Assembly: GCA_902589185.1 (NCBI GenBank)
Contig: CACIRZ010000001.1
Span: 1-64,000 of the forward strand
Source of the DNA: an uncultured SAR116 cluster alpha proteobacterium
Lineage (GTDB): Bacteria; Pseudomonadota; Alphaproteobacteria; Puniceispirillales; Marisalimonadaceae
Reading direction: 5' to 3'
Length of the DNA stretch: 64,000 nt
Below are positions 21,361 to 30,126 of the stretch, one piece after another (positions within the stretch are counted from its first letter, which is position 1; each line of letters starts with the position of its first letter). The notes beneath the pieces are model-generated. The model saw nothing but the letters and a program-made list of their open reading frames with translations, searched no databases and was not told the DNA's origin. The translations under genes were made by a program, and so were the position numbers.

Positions 21361-22086
21361 TTAACAACCTAATTGTTTTGCTAAGTCTTTTAAATCTCTT
21401 GAAACTATATCCCATTCTCTATTATCTTTATAATCATTAACTTCAGCAATATCAAACAACTTATCCTTGCCATACTCAAAAGGTCTATGAACATAAGCTG
21501 TTTTCATCCCTTGTTGTCTTGCTGCTCTAAGATCGTCTTCGTGTGCAGCAACCATCAAACATTCTTCTGTTTTAAAATTTAGAGCATTGCAAGCTTTTAA
21601 ATAAGCTTCTGGCTCAGGTTTGTAATGACCAGTTACTTCTGCTCCTAAAATAACATCCCAATTGAGATTTGAAAATTTTGCCATGTTAAGAATTAAAGCT
21701 ATATTTCCATTAGATTGAGTGGCTAAAATATATTTTTTCTTGAGTAGGTTGATACCTTCACTGCTATCCGGCCAACCTGGAAGTCTATGCCATGCAGTTA
21801 CTAGCAATTTAAAATCTTCATCAGAAATATTATGCAAATTAAATTTTGGGGCAATTTTTTTCAAATTTTCCATGTGTAAAATGTCAAGAATAGTAAATGA
21901 TCTTCTACCCTTCCTTATCTCCTCCATAGCTGGCTGATATTCTGCTCTCCATGAATCAGCAAAATCAAAAGGATCTAATGAAATATTGTTTTTCTTTGCA
22001 AAACTCTCTACTTCTCTTGCTATACCAGTTCTCCAATCAACAACAGTTCCAAACACATCAAATAAAAGTGCTTTAACTTTTAACAT
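21361..22086 (-). CDS. Haloacid dehalogenase type II-like HAD hydrolase
   Basis: The start is set at the internal ATG (MLKVKALLFDVFGT). HAD motif I 'FDVFGTVVDW' carries the nucleophilic Asp, motif II is 'LATQSNGN', motif III Lys is in 'GHYKPEPEAY', and motif IV is 'AAHEDDLRAARQQGM'. This set, including SNGN and AAHxxDL, is that of (S)-2-haloacid dehalogenase, which turns 2-haloacids into 2-hydroxyacids. Activity on other phosphorylated or halogenated acids is possible. It precedes the PuuD-type gene by 36 bases on the same strand. Confidence 0.88.
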   Translation of the reverse strand: MLKVKALLFDVFGTVVDWRTGIAREVESFAKKNNISLDPFDFADSWRAEYQPAMEEIRKGRRSFTILDILHMENLKKIAPKFNLHNISDEDFKLLVTAWHRLPGWPDSSEGINLLKKKYILATQSNGNIALILNMAKFSNLNWDVILGAEVTGHYKPEPEAYLKACNALNFKTEECLMVAAHEDDLRAARQQGMKTAYVHRPFEYGKDKLFDIAEVNDYKDNREWDIVSRDLKDLAKQLGC

Positions 22087-22207
22087 TTTGCCTCCAATCA
22101 ATTAATATGTTAAGTATATTTGATAAGTATTTTTATAACTCAAATTTAATCTAGTTCAAAAGTATATAAAACCTATTTAAATTTATATTATAAATCTGTT
22201 CAGTTTC

Positions 22208-23122
22208 ATGAATAAAGATAAATTGAAAAAAATAAAATCATTACCACCTGCATTTTTAGCTGTGATATTCATGGTTTTATCAGGCATTTTTGCAACAACT
22301 ATGCATTGTTTAATAAGGTTTGCTACTGAGGATAGCCATCCATTTGAAGTTGCTTTTTTTAGAACAATATTTGTCCTCCTCATTTTTTTTCCTGTGGTTA
22401 CAAAAAATGGTTTAGCATCACTAAGATCTAATAATGTAAAATTACAATCATATAGAGCAGTTGTTGGAAGCGTAGCCATGTTATGTATGTTTTATGGGCT
22501 TAGTATAACAGAGTTGGCAAAAGCAACTGCACTCATGTTTACTGTTCCTATTTTTGCAACAATACTTGCAATAATTTTTCTCAAAGAGATTGTTGGAATA
22601 AGAAGATGGCTTGCAATGTGTGTGGGATTTATAGGAGCATTAATTGTTTTAAGACCAGATATCGAGTTAGGGTTTGGGCCATTACTTATATTATGCGCTT
22701 CATTAATGTGGTCTTCTTCAATGTTAATGGCAAAAAAACTTACACAAACAGATACCACAGTAAGTATAACATTTTGGCAAGCTGCAGGTCTGATACCAGC
22801 AACATTTATACTTGCCATACAAGTTTGGGAGTGGCCTACCCTTCAACAACTAATAATGTTTTTGTTTATTGCAATAGCAGGAACGTTAGTTCACTGGTTT
22901 CTAAATGAGGCTCTAAAAAGAGCTGATATTACTGCACTTCTTCCACTAGATTATTTAAGATTAATTTGGTCAGTATCACTAGGATTTATATTTTTTAATG
23001 AAATACCTCATATTGGTCTTTGGATAGGATCTGCACTTATTTTGGGTGCTTCAACATATATTGGTATAAGACAAGCAAAAAAGAAAGAACAGATAAATAC
23101 TAGCACAAATGTTAATATATAA
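22208..23122 (+). CDS. EamA (DMT) family permease
   Basis: 304 residues with ten hydrophobic helices in two EamA repeats. The first half contains 'RFATEDSHPFEVAFFRTIFVL' and the second 'WFLNEALKRADITALLPLDYLRLIWSVSLGFIFFNE', both family hallmarks. The family exports or imports small metabolites; the substrate is unknown. It is divergent from the HAD gene and convergent with the SDR, whose stop lies 2 bases away. Confidence 0.9.
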   Translation: MNKDKLKKIKSLPPAFLAVIFMVLSGIFATTMHCLIRFATEDSHPFEVAFFRTIFVLLIFFPVVTKNGLASLRSNNVKLQSYRAVVGSVAMLCMFYGLSITELAKATALMFTVPIFATILAIIFLKEIVGIRRWLAMCVGFIGALIVLRPDIELGFGPLLILCASLMWSSSMLMAKKLTQTDTTVSITFWQAAGLIPATFILAIQVWEWPTLQQLIMFLFIAIAGTLVHWFLNEALKRADITALLPLDYLRLIWSVSLGFIFFNEIPHIGLWIGSALILGASTYIGIRQAKKKEQINTSTNVNI

Positions 23123-23124
23123 AC

Positions 23125-23865
23125 TTAACGTCCTCCAGAGACAGGCACAACTGAACCTGAAATATAACTTGAGTCTTCACTTAATAACCACATTACAGTT
23201 TTTGCAACTTCTTCTGCGCCACCTATCCTTCCAAGTGGAACTGATGGCATTAATCTATCTACTCGAGAGGCGTCCCCTGCCTTGGCATGAATTTCAGTAT
23301 CAATTAAACCCGGAGCAACAGCGTTAACTCTTATTCCAAATTTTCCAAGCTCTTTTGCCATTCCATAAGTAAGGGAATGCATAGCGCCCTTAGACATTGC
23401 ATAGTGAACAAACTCTCCTCCACCACCAATATCTGCGGCTATTGAAGACATATTAACTATTGTTCCTGATTTCTGAGAAATCATAACTCTTGCTGACTCT
23501 TGAGCCACATAAAAAGCACCTAATATGTTTGTATCTATTACCATCTTCAAATCATCTGGGCTAAGATCTTGTATTGGTGAAATTGGTCCTGTTATTCCAG
23601 CGTTGTTAAAAACACCATCAATTGTTCCAGCTTTATCTAAGAAATCAGTAAACATACCTTTAACAGATTTATTATTAGCTACGTCACACTGTAATATAAT
23701 TCCATCACCACCTGAATCACGGACAAGTTTTAGACATTCTTCTGCTGCCTTTGAATTTTGATTATAGTTAATTCCTACAAACATTTGTGCTTTAGCGGCT
23801 TCAATTGCAGTAGCTTTTCCTATCCCTTGGCTTGCGCCTGTAATTAAAATATTTTTCATTTTCAT
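23125..23865 (-). CDS. Short-chain dehydrogenase/reductase (FabG-like)
   Basis: 246 residues with the classical SDR plan: 'TGASQGIGKA' cofactor motif near 9-18, 'NNAGITGP' near 90-97, catalytic Ser in 'NMSSIAAD', Tyr and Lys in 'YAMSK', and 'APGLIDTE' then the C-terminal 'YISGSVVPVSGGR'. Complete catalytic residues contrast with the atypical SDR at 34100. The likely reaction is NAD(P)-dependent oxidation or reduction of a hydroxyl or keto group. It is spaced 23 bases after the 2-hydroxyacid dehydrogenase and probably cotranscribed. Confidence 0.92.
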   Translation of the reverse strand: MKMKNILITGASQGIGKATAIEAAKAQMFVGINYNQNSKAAEECLKLVRDSGGDGIILQCDVANNKSVKGMFTDFLDKAGTIDGVFNNAGITGPISPIQDLSPDDLKMVIDTNILGAFYVAQESARVMISQKSGTIVNMSSIAADIGGGGEFVHYAMSKGAMHSLTYGMAKELGKFGIRVNAVAPGLIDTEIHAKAGDASRVDRLMPSVPLGRIGGAEEVAKTVMWLLSEDSSYISGSVVPVSGGR

Positions 23866-23888
23866 TTCCTTAATTATTTTTGTTTATT

Positions 23889-24908
23889 TTAAATTTTTTT
23901 AAATTTTTCTCGAAAAATATCTAATATAACTGGATTGACTGGCCTTAATGGATCCTTACCATCAAATATATCCAAAAGCTGTGTTGCAACAAATTCAGAC
24001 ATTTTATTGCGACTATCTCTAGTAATTCCAGCTGTGTGTGGGCTAGCTATGACATTTTCAAGTTTTAAAAGTTTATGTGTTGATGGAGGAGGTTCAAACT
24101 CCCATACATCTAAACCAGCTCCTGCTAAATGCCCTTCTGTGAGTATATCATATAAATCATCTTCATTATGGATTGATCCTCTGGATGTAGTAACAAAGTA
24201 ACTACCTTTTTTCATTTTCTTAAACCAATTTTTATTGATCATATTATTTGTTTCTTTATTTAAGGGTATATGTACAGAGACCACGTCACTTTCCGCTAAT
24301 AAAATATCTAATTCAGTTTTATTTGCATTTTTCTTCTTAAAAGAATCATCAGCCAAGTAAGGGTCATAAGCCAAAATATTACAGTTAAATGCAACCTTAC
24401 ATATTTCTGCAACCCTACCACCTGTGTTTCCAAGACCTATAATTCCAACGTTTTTATTTAAAAGATCTTTTCCCATTAAACTCACTCTTGGCTTGTTCCA
24501 ACCTCTCCTAAGAGCATGGTCACATTCACCAATTCTTTTAAATAAATTTAAAATCATTCCTACTGCGTGCTCAGCTACACCTTCAGCATTTCCGCCAGTT
24601 TGGTTAACTACTAATACACCTGCATCTGTACATGCCTCAACATCAATAGTGTCGTAGCCTGCACCAGAAGATGAGATAACAATTAAGTTAGGTACTTTAC
24701 TTAAAAATTGTTTATCAACTTGTAAATATTTTGGGACCTCATCTCTTGCTGCTCCAACTTGATATGCATCTGCTTTTTGTAAAATTGACATGCACTTTTC
24801 TTCATTATCAGAACTATTAATTTTTAATATTTCAACTTTAGATTGAGAATGTAAAATATCTAAACCATTTTGGGCAGGCAAAGTATCTAAGTAAACTATT
24901 GTAGGCAT
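23889..24908 (-). CDS. D-isomer-specific 2-hydroxyacid dehydrogenase
   Basis: The start is taken at 24908 rather than 24947 because 'GAGGAT' sits just upstream of that ATG and the protein then begins in the first strand. About 339 residues. Rossmann motif 'GIIGLGNTGGRVAEI' is central, 'TTSRGSIHNEDDL' carries the substrate Arg, and 'SPHTAGIT' the catalytic His, with Glu in 'DVWEFEPPP'. Enzymes of this group oxidise or reduce D-2-hydroxyacids such as glycerate, lactate or phosphoglycerate. Divergent from RidA, with which it may share a promoter region. Confidence 0.88.
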   Translation of the reverse strand: MPTIVYLDTLPAQNGLDILHSQSKVEILKINSSDNEEKCMSILQKADAYQVGAARDEVPKYLQVDKQFLSKVPNLIVISSSGAGYDTIDVEACTDAGVLVVNQTGGNAEGVAEHAVGMILNLFKRIGECDHALRRGWNKPRVSLMGKDLLNKNVGIIGLGNTGGRVAEICKVAFNCNILAYDPYLADDSFKKKNANKTELDILLAESDVVSVHIPLNKETNNMINKNWFKKMKKGSYFVTTSRGSIHNEDDLYDILTEGHLAGAGLDVWEFEPPPSTHKLLKLENVIASPHTAGITRDSRNKMSEFVATQLLDIFDGKDPLRPVNPVILDIFREKFKKI

Positions 24909-25055
24909 ATTATCCTCATAATGAAAATACTCCCATATGATATTCATTTTCCAAATTCATGCAAAGTAAATGAAACTATTTTTTTAAGTATATTTTGTAA
25001 GATACTATTGTAGGATAATAATATACCGGTTTAATTTATATTTATGAGGATTAAA

Positions 25056-25439
25056 ATGATTAATAGAATATTGATTCCAGATATACTTCAGCCAGTAAGT
25101 CATTATTGTCATGTAGTTGAAGCAAATGGTGTGGTTTGGGTTTCAGGATTAGTAGGCATGAATTTTGATGAAACAATTCCAGAGAGTACTAAGGATCAGT
25201 TTGATATTGCTATGCGAGATCTAGATACTTGTCTTATTGCAGCTGGAAGTTCGTCAAATGATGTAGTTAAGGTGAGAGTCTTTTTAACTGATATTAGAGA
25301 TAGATCTATTATTAATCCAAAAAGAATTGAATATTTTGGAGAACATAAACCTGCATCTACTTTATTAGAAGTATCTGCTCTTGTAGACCCAAAAATGAAA
25401 GTTGAAATTGAAGCTGAAGCAATTGTTACAAAATCATAA
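25056..25439 (+). CDS. RidA family protein
   Basis: The start is at 25056, since 'GAGGAT' lies 6 bases upstream, while the tracked ATG at 25044 overlaps that ribosome site. About 127 residues of the RidA/YjgF/UK114 trimeric fold, with 'PVSHYCHVVEANGVVWVSGLVG' and 'KVRVFLTDI', and a late 'VDPKMKVEIEAEAI'. The canonical imine deaminase has an Arg near residue 105 in 'R.xVxV'; here the corresponding segment reads 'STLLEVSAL' with no Arg, so it belongs to a non-RidA subgroup. It is 16 bases before the amidase gene. Confidence 0.88.
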   Translation: MINRILIPDILQPVSHYCHVVEANGVVWVSGLVGMNFDETIPESTKDQFDIAMRDLDTCLIAAGSSSNDVVKVRVFLTDIRDRSIINPKRIEYFGEHKPASTLLEVSALVDPKMKVEIEAEAIVTKS

Positions 25440-25455
25440 TAAGAGAGAAATTTAG

Positions 25456-26772
25456 ATGGACTTAATTAAACTAAGCGCTAACGAAGCATTAAAGATGATG
25501 AAAGAAGACAATCTTTCTTCTGAAGAGTATGTGAAAGCATTTTTAAAACAAATAGAATTACGAGAAAATGAAGTTGGCGCTTGGATTTTTTTAGATCCTA
25601 AACTTGTATTAGACCAAGCAAGAGAAGCTGATAAAAGATGGAAAGATAAAACTGCAGGTAAATTAAACGGCCTCCCAATTGGTATTAAAGACATCATCGA
25701 TACAAAGGATATGCCTACAGAAAATGGATCTCAATTATGTAAAGACAGAAAACCATCTAAAGATGCTCATTTAGTTAAATTACTGAGAGATGAGGGCGCT
25801 GTTATTATGGGTAAATGTGTTACAACTGAGTTTGCCTTATCAGGACCTGGTAAAACAAAAAATCCAAAAGATCTAGAATGTACCCCAGGTGGCTCTTCAT
25901 CGGGTTCTGCTGCCGCTGTATCAGACTATATGGTACCGCTAGCAATTGGTTCACAAACGGGTGGTTCTGTTTTAAGACCTGCATCATTCACAGGTATATT
26001 AGGATTTAAACCAACCTTTGGGACAATATCAAGATCTGGAATGTCGCCAATTTCTCAAAGATTAGACCACCCTGGTATTTATGCTAATTGTGTGGAAGAC
26101 ATAGACTTAGTTGCCTCAGTGATTTTATCATATGACAGTGAAGATTTAGATATGATCCAAAATTACCAATATAAAAACGATCTCAATTTAAACAAATCAC
26201 TTAAATTTGGATTTGTTAGAGGACCTGTTTGGAATTTTGGTGATGAAGATATGAAAAATGGAATTGAAGAGTTTGTAAAAAATTCACGACTTGATATTGA
26301 AGAGTTAGACCTTGGAAAAGATTTTGAAGATGCGGCTAAAGCGCACGAAATTATAATGAACGGCTCTATAGCCAATTCTCTAATTAATTATTATCAAGCT
26401 GATAAATCTATGCTTCATACATTTACCGTTAAAAGAATAGAAGCAGGAATACCAGTATCTGCAAAGGATTACGTATCAGCAATAGAAAAAGCAAAGAAAA
26501 TGGAAAAAATTTTAAGACAATTATTTCTTAAATACGATTCTATTATTACCCCTGCAGCGCCAGGACAAGCCCCTCGTGATCTAATGAATACTGGAAATGC
26601 AATTTTTAACGGATATTGGACTATGATGGGCGTTCCAGCAATCAGCCTTCCTTTTTTAAAAGGTAGAGACAATTTACCTATTGGCATTCAATTTATTGCA
26701 AATTGGAGTGAAGATTTAAAATTATTGGAAATTTGTAAGGAAGTCTTAAAAAAAGAAAAGCTTGCTGACTAG
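25456..26772 (+). CDS. Amidase-signature hydrolase
   Basis: 438 residues of the amidase signature family. The Ser-Ser-Lys triad is visible: Lys78 in 'GIKDIIDT', the cis-Ser in 'PGGSSSGSAAA' near 144-154, and nucleophile Ser171 in 'GSQTGGSVLRPAS'. It hydrolyses a carboxamide to acid and ammonia. It follows RidA closely, so the pair may process a nitrogenous substrate. The stop codon lies inside a long hairpin shared with the convergent TRAP gene. Confidence 0.92.
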   Translation: MDLIKLSANEALKMMKEDNLSSEEYVKAFLKQIELRENEVGAWIFLDPKLVLDQAREADKRWKDKTAGKLNGLPIGIKDIIDTKDMPTENGSQLCKDRKPSKDAHLVKLLRDEGAVIMGKCVTTEFALSGPGKTKNPKDLECTPGGSSSGSAAAVSDYMVPLAIGSQTGGSVLRPASFTGILGFKPTFGTISRSGMSPISQRLDHPGIYANCVEDIDLVASVILSYDSEDLDMIQNYQYKNDLNLNKSLKFGFVRGPVWNFGDEDMKNGIEEFVKNSRLDIEELDLGKDFEDAAKAHEIIMNGSIANSLINYYQADKSMLHTFTVKRIEAGIPVSAKDYVSAIEKAKKMEKILRQLFLKYDSIITPAAPGQAPRDLMNTGNAIFNGYWTMMGVPAISLPFLKGRDNLPIGIQFIANWSEDLKLLEICKEVLKKEKLAD

Positions 26773-26787
26773 AGCAGTCAGCAAGCT
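26759..26787. terminator. Bidirectional hairpin spanning the amidase stop codon
   Basis: A perfect 12-bp inverted repeat, AGCTTGCTGACT and AGTCAGCAAGCT, with a 5-base loop (agagc). The amidase stop TAG at 26770-26772 falls at the top of the left arm. On the minus strand the stem is followed by a T-rich run (cttttcttttttt), a good intrinsic terminator for the TRAP binding-protein gene. On the plus strand the tail is less T-rich. Confidence 0.75.
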
Positions 26788-26802: not shown

Positions 26803-27819
26803 TTAAAGTAAACCTATTTTCTTCATATAAGATAGATTTGACTCTAGAGCCTCTTTAGCAAGTGGGCTTTTTGAAGCAGCAGAGTTCCATGCATCAACAG
26901 CAATTTTTCTGAACTTAGCTCTCTCAGTAACAGGCCAATCGATGATTGTTAAATCACCAGCTGCCTTGTCTTTTTCAACCTGAGCTCTACCATCAAGGCC
27001 AGCATCTCTTAGTTTAGCTGTCCAAGTCATGTAGGTCCAAACTGTTAAGGCAGTTTGATGTTGTTTACTTAACTTATTAAAAACTTTCTTGTTAATAATA
27101 GTCTGTAGGTTAGCCATTGAGTGAATACCCGGATACAATGGATATTTAGCAATTTTATGGAAACCACTAGCATGGTTGTTTATGTAGACTGAAGCGTCAG
27201 CGGCATCAACAATACCTTTTTCTAATGAAGTATAAACCTCAGAGAAAGGAATTGAAGAAGGTGAAGCACCTGCTCTTCTGAAAACATCAGCAGCTAAACC
27301 TTCAGGTGATCTAATTTTCACACCTTTAAGATCTGCAACTCCATTGATTGGCACTTTTGAAACAAGAGCTTCTTTTCCATATGGACCACAGCCTAGAACA
27401 AGAATTTTACCTGGTAGAACGCTATCATATATTTTTTGTAACATTTCTTTTCCACCACCGTGCATACAATATTCTTGATATTGTTTTGGTGTGTCGTAAC
27501 CAGCAATCAAGTCACCCATAATTGCAAAAGCTGGATCTCTTCCTGCAAAATACGCAATAGCATTGAAATCGCCGTCTAGGATACCATTTGCAACTGCATC
27601 AATTGTTTCTCTGTGAGGTACAACAGACTTTGTCGGTAATCCTTCAATTTGTAATTTACCATCGGTAAGGTCTGACAATATTTTTGCCTTTTCCCCCATA
27701 TAAGTATGAGCCCAGTCACCGGCTTTAGAGCTCATCTGAAATTTTAATTTTTTTGCACTAGCGGCACCAGTAAAGGTTAGACCAGCTACTACTAAGGCAC
27801 TTATTAATATTTTTTTCAC
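26803..27819 (-). CDS. TRAP transporter substrate-binding protein (system 1, DctP/TakP-like)
   Basis: The true start is GTG at 27819: an 'AAGGAGG' box lies just upstream and the product opens with a clean signal peptide (KKILISALVVAGLTF...ASA). The tracked ATG lies before this ribosome site. About 338 residues. Typical DctP features are 'LKGVKIRSPEGLAADVFRRAGA' with the carboxylate-binding Arg, and 'EVYTSLEKGIVDAADASVY'. The overall pattern is nearer to keto-acid binding TakP-like proteins. The periplasmic protein would feed the fused permease at 28069. Substrate unproven. Confidence 0.9.
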   Translation of the reverse strand: MKKILISALVVAGLTFTGAASAKKLKFQMSSKAGDWAHTYMGEKAKILSDLTDGKLQIEGLPTKSVVPHRETIDAVANGILDGDFNAIAYFAGRDPAFAIMGDLIAGYDTPKQYQEYCMHGGGKEMLQKIYDSVLPGKILVLGCGPYGKEALVSKVPINGVADLKGVKIRSPEGLAADVFRRAGASPSSIPFSEVYTSLEKGIVDAADASVYINNHASGFHKIAKYPLYPGIHSMANLQTIINKKVFNKLSKQHQTALTVWTYMTWTAKLRDAGLDGRAQVEKDKAAGDLTIIDWPVTERAKFRKIAVDAWNSAASKSPLAKEALESNLSYMKKIGLL

Positions 27820-27841: not shown

Positions 27842-27964
27842 TCAACTGAAACCATCAGCTATGTAGAACATCATCCATGTAATCAAAACCGCGAAAGCAA
27901 ATCCAGCAATCCAAGCCCAGGGACCGTAGGTATCTACATGATCGCTTCTAACAGGTTTAGCCAC
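27842..27964 (-). CDS. 40-aa TRAP-associated membrane microprotein (not in ORF track)
   Basis: On the minus strand a GTG at 27964, preceded by 'AAGGAGGA' at good spacing, opens 40 codons ending TGA at 27842. The product has a short polar start ('AKPVRSDHVDTYGPW') and one tryptophan-rich helix ('AWIAGFAFAVLITWMMFYIADG'). The TRAP binding-protein GTG lies 22 bases beyond its stop, so both are on one transcript. It could be a small accessory subunit of TRAP system 1. No known family recognised. Confidence 0.72.
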   Translation of the reverse strand: MAKPVRSDHVDTYGPWAWIAGFAFAVLITWMMFYIADGFS

Positions 27965-27983
27965 AATTTCCTCCTTGGTTCTT

Positions 27984-28003
27984 GACATACGAAAATATAT
28001 GTC
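27984..28003. promoter_or_regulatory. Inverted repeat over a TTGACA box between divergent TRAP genes
   Basis: GACATA and TATGTC arms lie 8 bases apart, giving a 20-bp operator-like site. A TTGACA (27982-27987) overlaps its left arm. The site sits between the 40-aa/binding-protein operon and the fused permease gene, where a regulator could control both. Base pairing is short, so confidence is low. Confidence 0.3.
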
Positions 28004-28030
28004 TCTAATAATGTTAATGTGTTAATTGTT

Positions 28031-28036
28031 TATAAT
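28031..28036 (+). promoter_or_regulatory. Probable -10 box of TRAP system 1 permease
   Basis: A perfect TATAAT lies 38 bases before the permease ATG, with TG two bases ahead of it. A strong -35 at normal spacing is not evident. A GGGGGA ribosome site follows at about 28057. Confidence 0.35.
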
Positions 28037-28068
28037 GCAAGTATAAAATTCATATTGGGGGAAATTTA

Positions 28069-30126
28069 ATGGCAGAAACAGTCCAAAAGCAAAATTTAGA
28101 CTTGGATAATATGGAAAATTTTGAGACTGGGAAAGATAGTTTTGCCTTCTTTGACCACTTCAGTAAGTTTTCTGGGCTAGCTGTAGCACAACTTTATTTA
28201 ATATGTGCTGCTGTAACAGGATACGAAGTTATTTCCAGATATGTTTTTGACAACCCAACCCAATGGGTATTTGAAGTTGTTATGGTTTTAGCTGCTACGG
28301 CATGGATGTTATCAGCTGCATATGTAACACTTCATAAAAGACATATTGGTATCACTGTCTTTTATATAATGGCATCTGACAAGGGTAAATGGTGGCTTGA
28401 TTTCATTGCTTATGTTGTAGGTATCATAGCCTTGTGGCTACTTATAGATGACTCAGTTATTCGCGCACTTGATTCCGTAATGATGCTAGAAAAAGCAGGT
28501 AGTGCGTGGAACTCTCCACAACCAATGATATTAAAATCTATGCTCACCATCGGTGCAACAACTTACATAATTCAATTGATGATTAATCTTTATAGGCATT
28601 TTAGCTCAAATATTGCAAAAAAAATAGTTTTAGCAATTTGTGGTTTGATAATTTTGAGAATCACTTGCGTTATTATAGTACATTTTATAGGAGAAGAGAG
28701 TTTTGCTGGATACATAAATTCCATCTATGCTGCAGTTGGAAGTCATATTAATCCACAAGATTACCTTAACATGCAGGATATGAATATAGGTACTGCAAGC
28801 ATATTAATTGTTGTATTAATGCTAGTATTGATGATGACAGGTATGCCTTTGGGCGTGGTTACTTTATTTGTATCAGTTCTTAGTGCACTTTGCTATTTTG
28901 GTTATGGTGGTCTTTATTTAGTTTCTACTAATGCCTTTGGATTATTAGAAAAATATCCATTAATTGCTGTGCCATTATTTGTGTTAATGGCTTCAATTTT
29001 AGAAAGAGCTGGTGTCGCTGAAGATTTATTTGACGCTATGTCAATTTTTGCAGGTAAGTTACGTGGTGGCGTTGCCATTCAAACAATCGCTGTGGCAGTT
29101 GTTTTAGCTGCTATGTCAGGTGTTATGGGTGGAGAAATTGTTATGCTTGGCTTAGTTGCCTTACCTCAATTACTTAGATTAGGTTACGACAGAAAAATGT
29201 CAATTGGACTAATTTGTGCGTCTGGGGCATTAGCAACTCTTATTCCACCAAGTATCATAATGATTATTTATGGATTGTCTGCCCAAGTTGCCATTGGTGA
29301 TTTATTTATGGCTGGAGCTGTTCCTGGTTTAATGCTAGCTGGTCTTTATGCCATTTATGTACTTGCAAGATGTAATATAAATCCTTCAATGGCACCAACT
29401 GCAGAAGAAGTAGCAAAAGCAAGACAAAAAGAAATGAAGATGTCTAAAGATAAGCTTTATGCTGTATTTTTGAGTATCTTCTTAATTTTCTGTGTAATGG
29501 GATCAATTTATGGCGGGATTGCATCAGTAACCGAAGCTGCAGCAGTAGGTGTTTTAGGAGCTATTTTTGTTGCATGGTTTAGAAATGCTTATAGTTGGAA
29601 CCTACTACAAGTAGCTCTTGCTGGAACAATGTCTACTGTTGGAACAATTATTTGGTTAATTTTAGGGGCTGTAGCATTTGTAGGAATTTACAATCTTATA
29701 GGTGGGGCAGATTTTATGAGATCCTTATTTTCAGGATTAGGATTGCCTGCTATAGGAATAGTTTTTGTTATGATGGGGATTTTAGTTATCCTTGGAACAT
29801 TTATGGAGTGGATTGCAATAGCATTTATAACTGTTCCTGTGTTTGCTCCTGTTGTTGTTGGAATGGCACCAGAACTAGGTTTAGAACCTGAGTGGGCTGC
29901 TGTGTGGTTTGGTGTGTTATTTGTTATGAACATCCAAATTTATTTCCTATCACCACCATTTGGACCTGCATGTTTTTGGTTGAAATCCGTTGCACCAGCA
30001 GATATTACCTTACAAGAAATTTTTGTATCTGTTCTTCCATTTATAGCTCTACAAATAACAGGTATGTTATTAGTAATGTTTTATCCTGAAATTGCTCTTT
30101 GGTTTCCAAAGTGGCTTGGATCATAG
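28069..30126 (+). CDS. TRAP transporter fused DctQM permease (system 1)
   Basis: 685 residues joining both TRAP membrane subunits. Residues about 35-180 form the small four-helix DctQ part ('VISRYVFDNPTQWVFEVVM' is typical). A linking helix follows, and from about 240 the DctM part contains 'MTGMPLGVVTLFVSVLSALCYFG', 'VPLFVLMASILERAGVAEDLF', 'GEIVMLGLVALPQLLRLGYDRKMSIGLICASGALATLIPPS' and 'TEAAAVGVLGAI'. It is a Na+-driven importer in the inner membrane. Divergent from its probable binding protein. Confidence 0.93.
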   Translation: MAETVQKQNLDLDNMENFETGKDSFAFFDHFSKFSGLAVAQLYLICAAVTGYEVISRYVFDNPTQWVFEVVMVLAATAWMLSAAYVTLHKRHIGITVFYIMASDKGKWWLDFIAYVVGIIALWLLIDDSVIRALDSVMMLEKAGSAWNSPQPMILKSMLTIGATTYIIQLMINLYRHFSSNIAKKIVLAICGLIILRITCVIIVHFIGEESFAGYINSIYAAVGSHINPQDYLNMQDMNIGTASILIVVLMLVLMMTGMPLGVVTLFVSVLSALCYFGYGGLYLVSTNAFGLLEKYPLIAVPLFVLMASILERAGVAEDLFDAMSIFAGKLRGGVAIQTIAVAVVLAAMSGVMGGEIVMLGLVALPQLLRLGYDRKMSIGLICASGALATLIPPSIIMIIYGLSAQVAIGDLFMAGAVPGLMLAGLYAIYVLARCNINPSMAPTAEEVAKARQKEMKMSKDKLYAVFLSIFLIFCVMGSIYGGIASVTEAAAVGVLGAIFVAWFRNAYSWNLLQVALAGTMSTVGTIIWLILGAVAFVGIYNLIGGADFMRSLFSGLGLPAIGIVFVMMGILVILGTFMEWIAIAFITVPVFAPVVVGMAPELGLEPEWAAVWFGVLFVMNIQIYFLSPPFGPACFWLKSVAPADITLQEIFVSVLPFIALQITGMLLVMFYPEIALWFPKWLGS

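Follow-up and report, generated by a model that had tools for sequence, protein, structure and literature searches.

Work on TRAP transporters (DctP-DctQ-DctM, SiaPQM; TC 2.A.56), from their description to their structures and reconstitution, has treated them as three-part systems. Other transporters have one-helix partner proteins, an example being KdpF of the Kdp potassium pump. AcrZ, MgtS, and MgtR are further one-helix partners of other transporters (PMC10710835). SiaQM is a monomeric elevator whose scaffold is enlarged by the Q subunit (PMC9971032). The TRAP reviews and structure papers that we consulted give three parts, and the sole extra component found in them was TatT of a Treponema TRAP operon (TPAT), which is soluble, all-helical, and has a central pore (PMC5812351). 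No paper reporting a small TRAP subunit came up in a literature search, with most subscription journals outside its coverage.

The window (the whole stretch of 64,000 nucleotides analyzed here) comes from an ocean bacterium and carries a small gene that adjoins a nutrient-uptake transporter of the TRAP type. The locus has the following features, with coordinates on the window.

26759..26787, minus strand: stem-loop (13 pairs) and T-run directly 3' of dctP (pattern match only)
26803..27819, minus strand: dctP, encoding the TRAP solute-binding protein; starts with GTG, 22 bases 3' of the small gene
27842..27964, minus strand: the small gene, 40 codons (GTG...TGA), for a single-span membrane protein
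27965..28068, no strand: intergenic region of 104 bases separating the divergent small gene and dctQM (coordinates only)
27969..27976, minus strand: Shine-Dalgarno box AAGGAGGA of the small gene (direct reading; retained by most relatives in the genus)
28069..30126, plus strand: dctQM, encoding a fused TRAP permease with domains PF04290 and PF06808; divergent from the small gene

The DctP and DctQM proteins are ordinary TRAP proteins by Pfam (PF03480 at E=5.4e-37 for DctP; PF04290 at E=1.7e-16 and PF06808 at E=4.4e-65 for DctQM). As in SiaPQM, the P, Q, and M parts are all present and the QM model matches SiaQM; unlike the described systems, the TRAP branch to which this locus belongs has a constant extra single-span protein. 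TatT, too, is encoded alongside a TRAP transporter as an additional component, but it is a soluble protein of many helices, whereas the small protein here has 40 residues and a single hydrophobic helix (PMC5812351). AcrZ, MgtS, MgtR, and KdpF resemble it in size, in having one helix, and in being tied to one transporter; they belong to other transporter classes, no family model in the libraries searched matches the small protein, and its binding to the transporter is putative. DctQ, a scaffold-side partner of DctM, is a four-helix protein that these loci already encode, fused or separate.

Translation of 27842-27964 on the minus strand gives MAKPVRSDHVDTYGPWAWIAGFAFAVLITWMMFYIADGFS. The sequence immediately 5' of the GTG is CCAAGGAGGAAATT, and exactly 22 bases, occupied by AAAAGGAGGAATATA, separate the TGA from the GTG of dctP at 27819; the AAGGAGG box of dctP lies within this spacing. 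The original prediction, made from the letters of the window, had described a GTG start, 40 codons, a ribosome-binding box, a 22-base gap, and the AAGGAGG box, all of which proved accurate on direct reading; it left the strand, minus, unnamed. The single Trp-rich helix that it described agrees with the translation, which has three tryptophans (W16, W18, and W30) and one hydrophobic stretch. Maximum hydropathy was 2.09 over 18 residues, as for a single membrane helix, and charge-based prediction of the topology of the small protein gave no consistent answer. The frame had been said to be missing from the ORF track; the mechanical ORF list in fact holds it as a 48-aa version that begins with the ATG at 27988. 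We rejected this longer version: in the sister genus g4, the frame is interrupted by a stop two codons 5' of the ATG that is homologous to the GTG of the window, and the 40-codon start is thus the conserved one. The 24 bases ATGTCAAGAACCAAGGAGGAAATT at 27965-27988, 5' of the small gene, are nearly invariant in the genus, and the ATG frame across them is broken in g4 despite this near-invariance. The stretch of ATGTCAAGAACCAAGGAGGAAATT upstream of the Shine-Dalgarno box could serve as a regulatory element.

Comparison with relatives confirmed that the small ORF is a real, conserved protein-coding gene. Homologues with E<1e-9 were found, far in excess of chance, in 40 of the 58 genomes of the window's family (the raw tally of 41 includes a chance match in G018 at E=0.37), and the frame, the stop, and the short spacing to dctP were seen in 41 loci. 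Against several species, the small gene had 0 nonsynonymous and 5-7 synonymous changes; at 78-88% protein identity, dN was 0.08-0.10 and dS about 1-3, and dN/dS was ~0.05. A frame or Shine-Dalgarno sequence that was not conserved in relatives, or third-position changes in no excess, had been named in advance as grounds for abandoning the gene. Both the frame and the box turned out to be conserved, and nearly all changes were synonymous. One MAG (G045) contains two near-identical copies of the whole locus (contigs C42 and C79; L032 and L033), which probably reflect a strain mixture, as this MAG has 5% contamination.

The 104-base intergenic region presumably carries the promoters of the small gene and dctQM, and a promoter scan of 27965..28068 performed no better than on shuffled sequences. 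The stem-loop at 26759..26787 is a probable terminator of a small gene-dctP transcript, judging from its pattern. Genes at 21361-26772 encode a HAD-family hydrolase, an EamA transporter, an SDR, a D-2-hydroxyacid dehydrogenase, a RidA-like protein, and an amidase. The solved binding proteins closest to the window DctP are 4pe3 (the closest, E=6.6e-68) and the lactate-binding TTHA0766. This similarity, together with the nearby 2-hydroxyacid dehydrogenase, hints at a hydroxy- or oxo-acid as the substrate of the window TRAP system.

Searches of Pfam and NCBIfam with 46 members of the small-protein set gave no family match (best E 0.02), and neither did a search of PHROGs with three members (best E 0.022). 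The core over the 46 sequences is [YF]-G-x-W-[PA]-x-[IV]-x-G-x3-[AG]-...-MF-x-x-A-x-G, with G21 and F33 present in 45/46 sequences and W16 and M32 in 37/46. The original prediction had expected conserved W and D/H-V-D-T-Y residues; the W stands in the [YF]-G-x-W core, and the N-terminal D/H-V-D-T-Y is only partly general among the 46. The N-terminal tail, often acidic, ranges in length from about 12 to 40 residues. Groups of the small protein match one another in profile-profile comparison, where scores taken alone are weak for short hydrophobic segments and here agree with gene position and the tree; the most divergent copies, L146 and L144, were assigned mainly by position. Distances between small proteins correlated with those between the DctM proteins (r=0.80; permutation maximum 0.27). 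Judged against the libraries searched, the small protein represents a new family, one whose partner is defined. TRAP transporters themselves are known, and what is new is a TRAP branch with a fourth conserved gene.

Across the window's order, the small gene was found in 50 of 136 genomes (the listing of 51 includes a chance match in G083), and all 50 also encode the QM orthologue. Two further genomes have a QM fragment and no small gene; each of these fragments is cut off by a contig end on the side where the small gene would lie. Many of these genomes encode a second, distant DctM (~36% identical), as does that of the window at G000:C13, and the small-gene search found only one small-gene copy in the window genome. 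The small protein was shown to be a constant genetic partner of one TRAP branch.

Because a small-gene search finds the gene only where it is sought, we also conducted a census with DctQM as the query and without the small gene, and then sought one-helix ORFs with a Shine-Dalgarno box beside each dctM. All loci with a DctM >=54.9% identical to that of the window carried the small gene, and none was found at loci with a DctM <=54.7% identical, where the detector fired on unrelated ORFs (L169, L170, and L174) that do not match the family. In G376, G525, and G297, an all-frame reading located the small gene convergent to dctM or, in G297, on another contig. In this draft genome (L219, 10739-10876), the small gene lies on a different contig from dctM and is directly followed by a longer frame that overlaps it; the gene may really have moved, or the assembly may be broken between the two. 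A profile built from the P-QM-small arrangement alone matched 35 of the 39 other loci with the small gene at E<=0.01 and none of the 41 loci without it, even at E<=1. "Without" here means that there is no small gene near dctM, and one may lie elsewhere in the genome.

We built a maximum-likelihood tree from 95 DctM proteins (54 with and 41 without the small gene). In it, the label changed once, on a branch with SH-aLRT 100, against a mean of 31 changes for shuffled labels; near-identical species inflate these counts. Thirty of the 54 "with" rows had been reached via DctM and five via DctP, the rest having come via the small gene and being biased in that respect, and the independently found rows gave the same picture as the full tree. 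The tree is unrooted, and gain in one branch looks the same in it as loss in the other. Every assembled locus examined in the DctM branch has the small gene, and none of the 41 sampled DctM genes outside has one adjoining.

Five gene arrangements of the small protein and its TRAP branch were found, spread over Alphaproteobacteria and some Gammaproteobacteria. Profile and pattern scans found relatives in other families of the window's order and, beyond it, in Neomegalonema, Roseovarius aestuarii, and two Granulosicoccaceae MAGs (Gammaproteobacteria), with taxon names taken from public records. The gene is thus not restricted to the low-GC marine Alphaproteobacteria in which it had been expected. 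Relatives were also found on plasmids: in a Sulfitobacter dubius record, WP_276521414.1 ("hypothetical protein") lies between divergent dctQM and dctP; in an Acuticoccus record, WP_309199684.1 lies 3' of dctQM; in a Marinovum record, MALG_04920 lies 3' of separate dctQ and dctM; and in a Thalassospira record, the small ORF lies 3' of dctQM and is unlisted. Culturable members of the branch with plasmid-borne copies include Sulfitobacter dubius DSM 109990, Thalassospira marina, and Marinovum algicola. Annotation of the small gene is uneven, with some copies entered as "hypothetical protein" and others unlisted; the PLSDB gene table is incomplete, and a gene unlisted there may be annotated in the original record. 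No relatives of the small protein were found in viral contigs.

The small gene lies 22 bases upstream of dctP in the SAR116-type arrangement, and in other arrangements it lies directly 3' of dctQM or dctM and apart from dctP. At L156-L160, L195, L216, L217, L220, L144, and L146, it accompanies Q and M encoded as separate genes. The small gene stays with the transporter through changes of gene order, strand, and Q-M fusion, and G759 has two TRAP systems of the branch, each with its own small gene of the matching type. In the separate-Q/M branch, a gene for an IlvD/Edd-type dehydratase (annotated in Marinovum and elsewhere recognized by eye from translations) often follows 3' of the small gene (L146, 7089 onward; L227, about 5200 onward; L144, 7008-8738), which suggests sugar acids as substrates of these systems.

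The AlphaFold model of QM alone was a complete Q and M with a linker helix (pLDDT 70.8, pTM 0.64), and it matched SiaQM (8thi) over its length (Foldseek E=2.3e-19, TM 0.70/0.77). Since QM is already complete, the small protein would be an addition and not a replacement. We rejected the idea that it substitutes for a missing QM helix, because the QM model is complete and separate-Q/M systems also carry the small gene; for the same reasons, the link to Q-M fusion drawn in the original prediction was not borne out. For a natural QM-small read-through chain of a relative, AlphaFold predicted the helix, with its placement at pLDDT 35-47 and no interface found.

The small protein is probably a fourth subunit of one TRAP branch, a single-span membrane protein that is the constant genetic partner of its transporter. 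A small fourth TRAP subunit had been proposed in the original prediction, and this is the best-supported reading, as the gene follows the branch through every rearrangement; physically, the subunit is a putative one. The helix may pack against the Q/M scaffold of the complete QM complex. Its Gxxx[A/G] pattern and aromatic ends suit a helix packed at an interface, with contact and membrane anchoring provided by the near-invariant G21 of Gxxx[A/G] and, toward the two ends of the helix, by W16 and the MF pair. Like other one-helix transporter subunits, the small protein could stabilize or tune the Q/M scaffold or the way it couples to DctP; enlargement or stabilization of the scaffold is plausible because Q enlarges the scaffold in SiaQM (PMC9971032). 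We lean slightly toward the more specific view that this whole TRAP branch, whether its Q and M are fused or separate, is four-part throughout its range in Alpha- and some Gammaproteobacteria, with a one-helix subunit of 39-60 residues required for scaffold stability or for DctP coupling.

Co-inheritance would be equally expected of a subunit, a regulator, or an assembly factor. A small factor for regulation or stability, like MgtS, MgtR, or AcrZ, would bind QM conditionally and non-stoichiometrically and alter its activity or its turnover by an FtsH-type protease. Size and a single helix are as in the known small regulators of transporters (PMC10710835), and the genetic data for such a factor would be identical to those for a subunit; the known regulators, however, are usually under separate control, whereas the small gene lies within the transporter unit in nearly all loci, and its presence is constant across the branch and not patchy. 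We consider a regulator unlikely, if the most credible of the alternatives. An assembly or insertion factor needed only during QM synthesis is a role of which conserved one-helix proteins are capable, but related permeases outside the branch manage without such an adjoining gene, and we give this explanation very little weight.

The small protein might instead act on DctP and not on QM, as a membrane-anchored docking or export helper. Its cotranscription with dctP, 22 bases upstream of it in the SAR116-type arrangement, and its often acidic tails are in keeping with this; its position directly 3' of dctQM or dctM elsewhere, away from dctP, argues against it, as does the usual signal sequence that DctP has of its own (read from the translation), and a helper of DctP appears improbable. 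That no working protein is made, the ORF being a leader peptide, a chance frame, or a conserved DNA element, is scarcely credible: the ORF is short and near the dctP Shine-Dalgarno box, as a leader would be, but strong purifying selection acts on its amino acids, and homologues downstream of or convergent to dctM lie where a leader role is impossible. We rejected the leader peptide and the chance ORF on these two grounds, amino-acid conservation and relocated homologues.

For the branch to which the small gene belongs, the description of TRAP systems as "only P, Q, and M" probably does not hold, as a fourth conserved gene occurs branch-wide, with its product a candidate component. The defined partner makes the function of this new small-protein family directly testable. 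If the branch does have a constant fourth part, its reconstitution from P, Q, and M alone may yield inactive or misleading transporters, and studies of its substrates and coupling would need to include the small gene.
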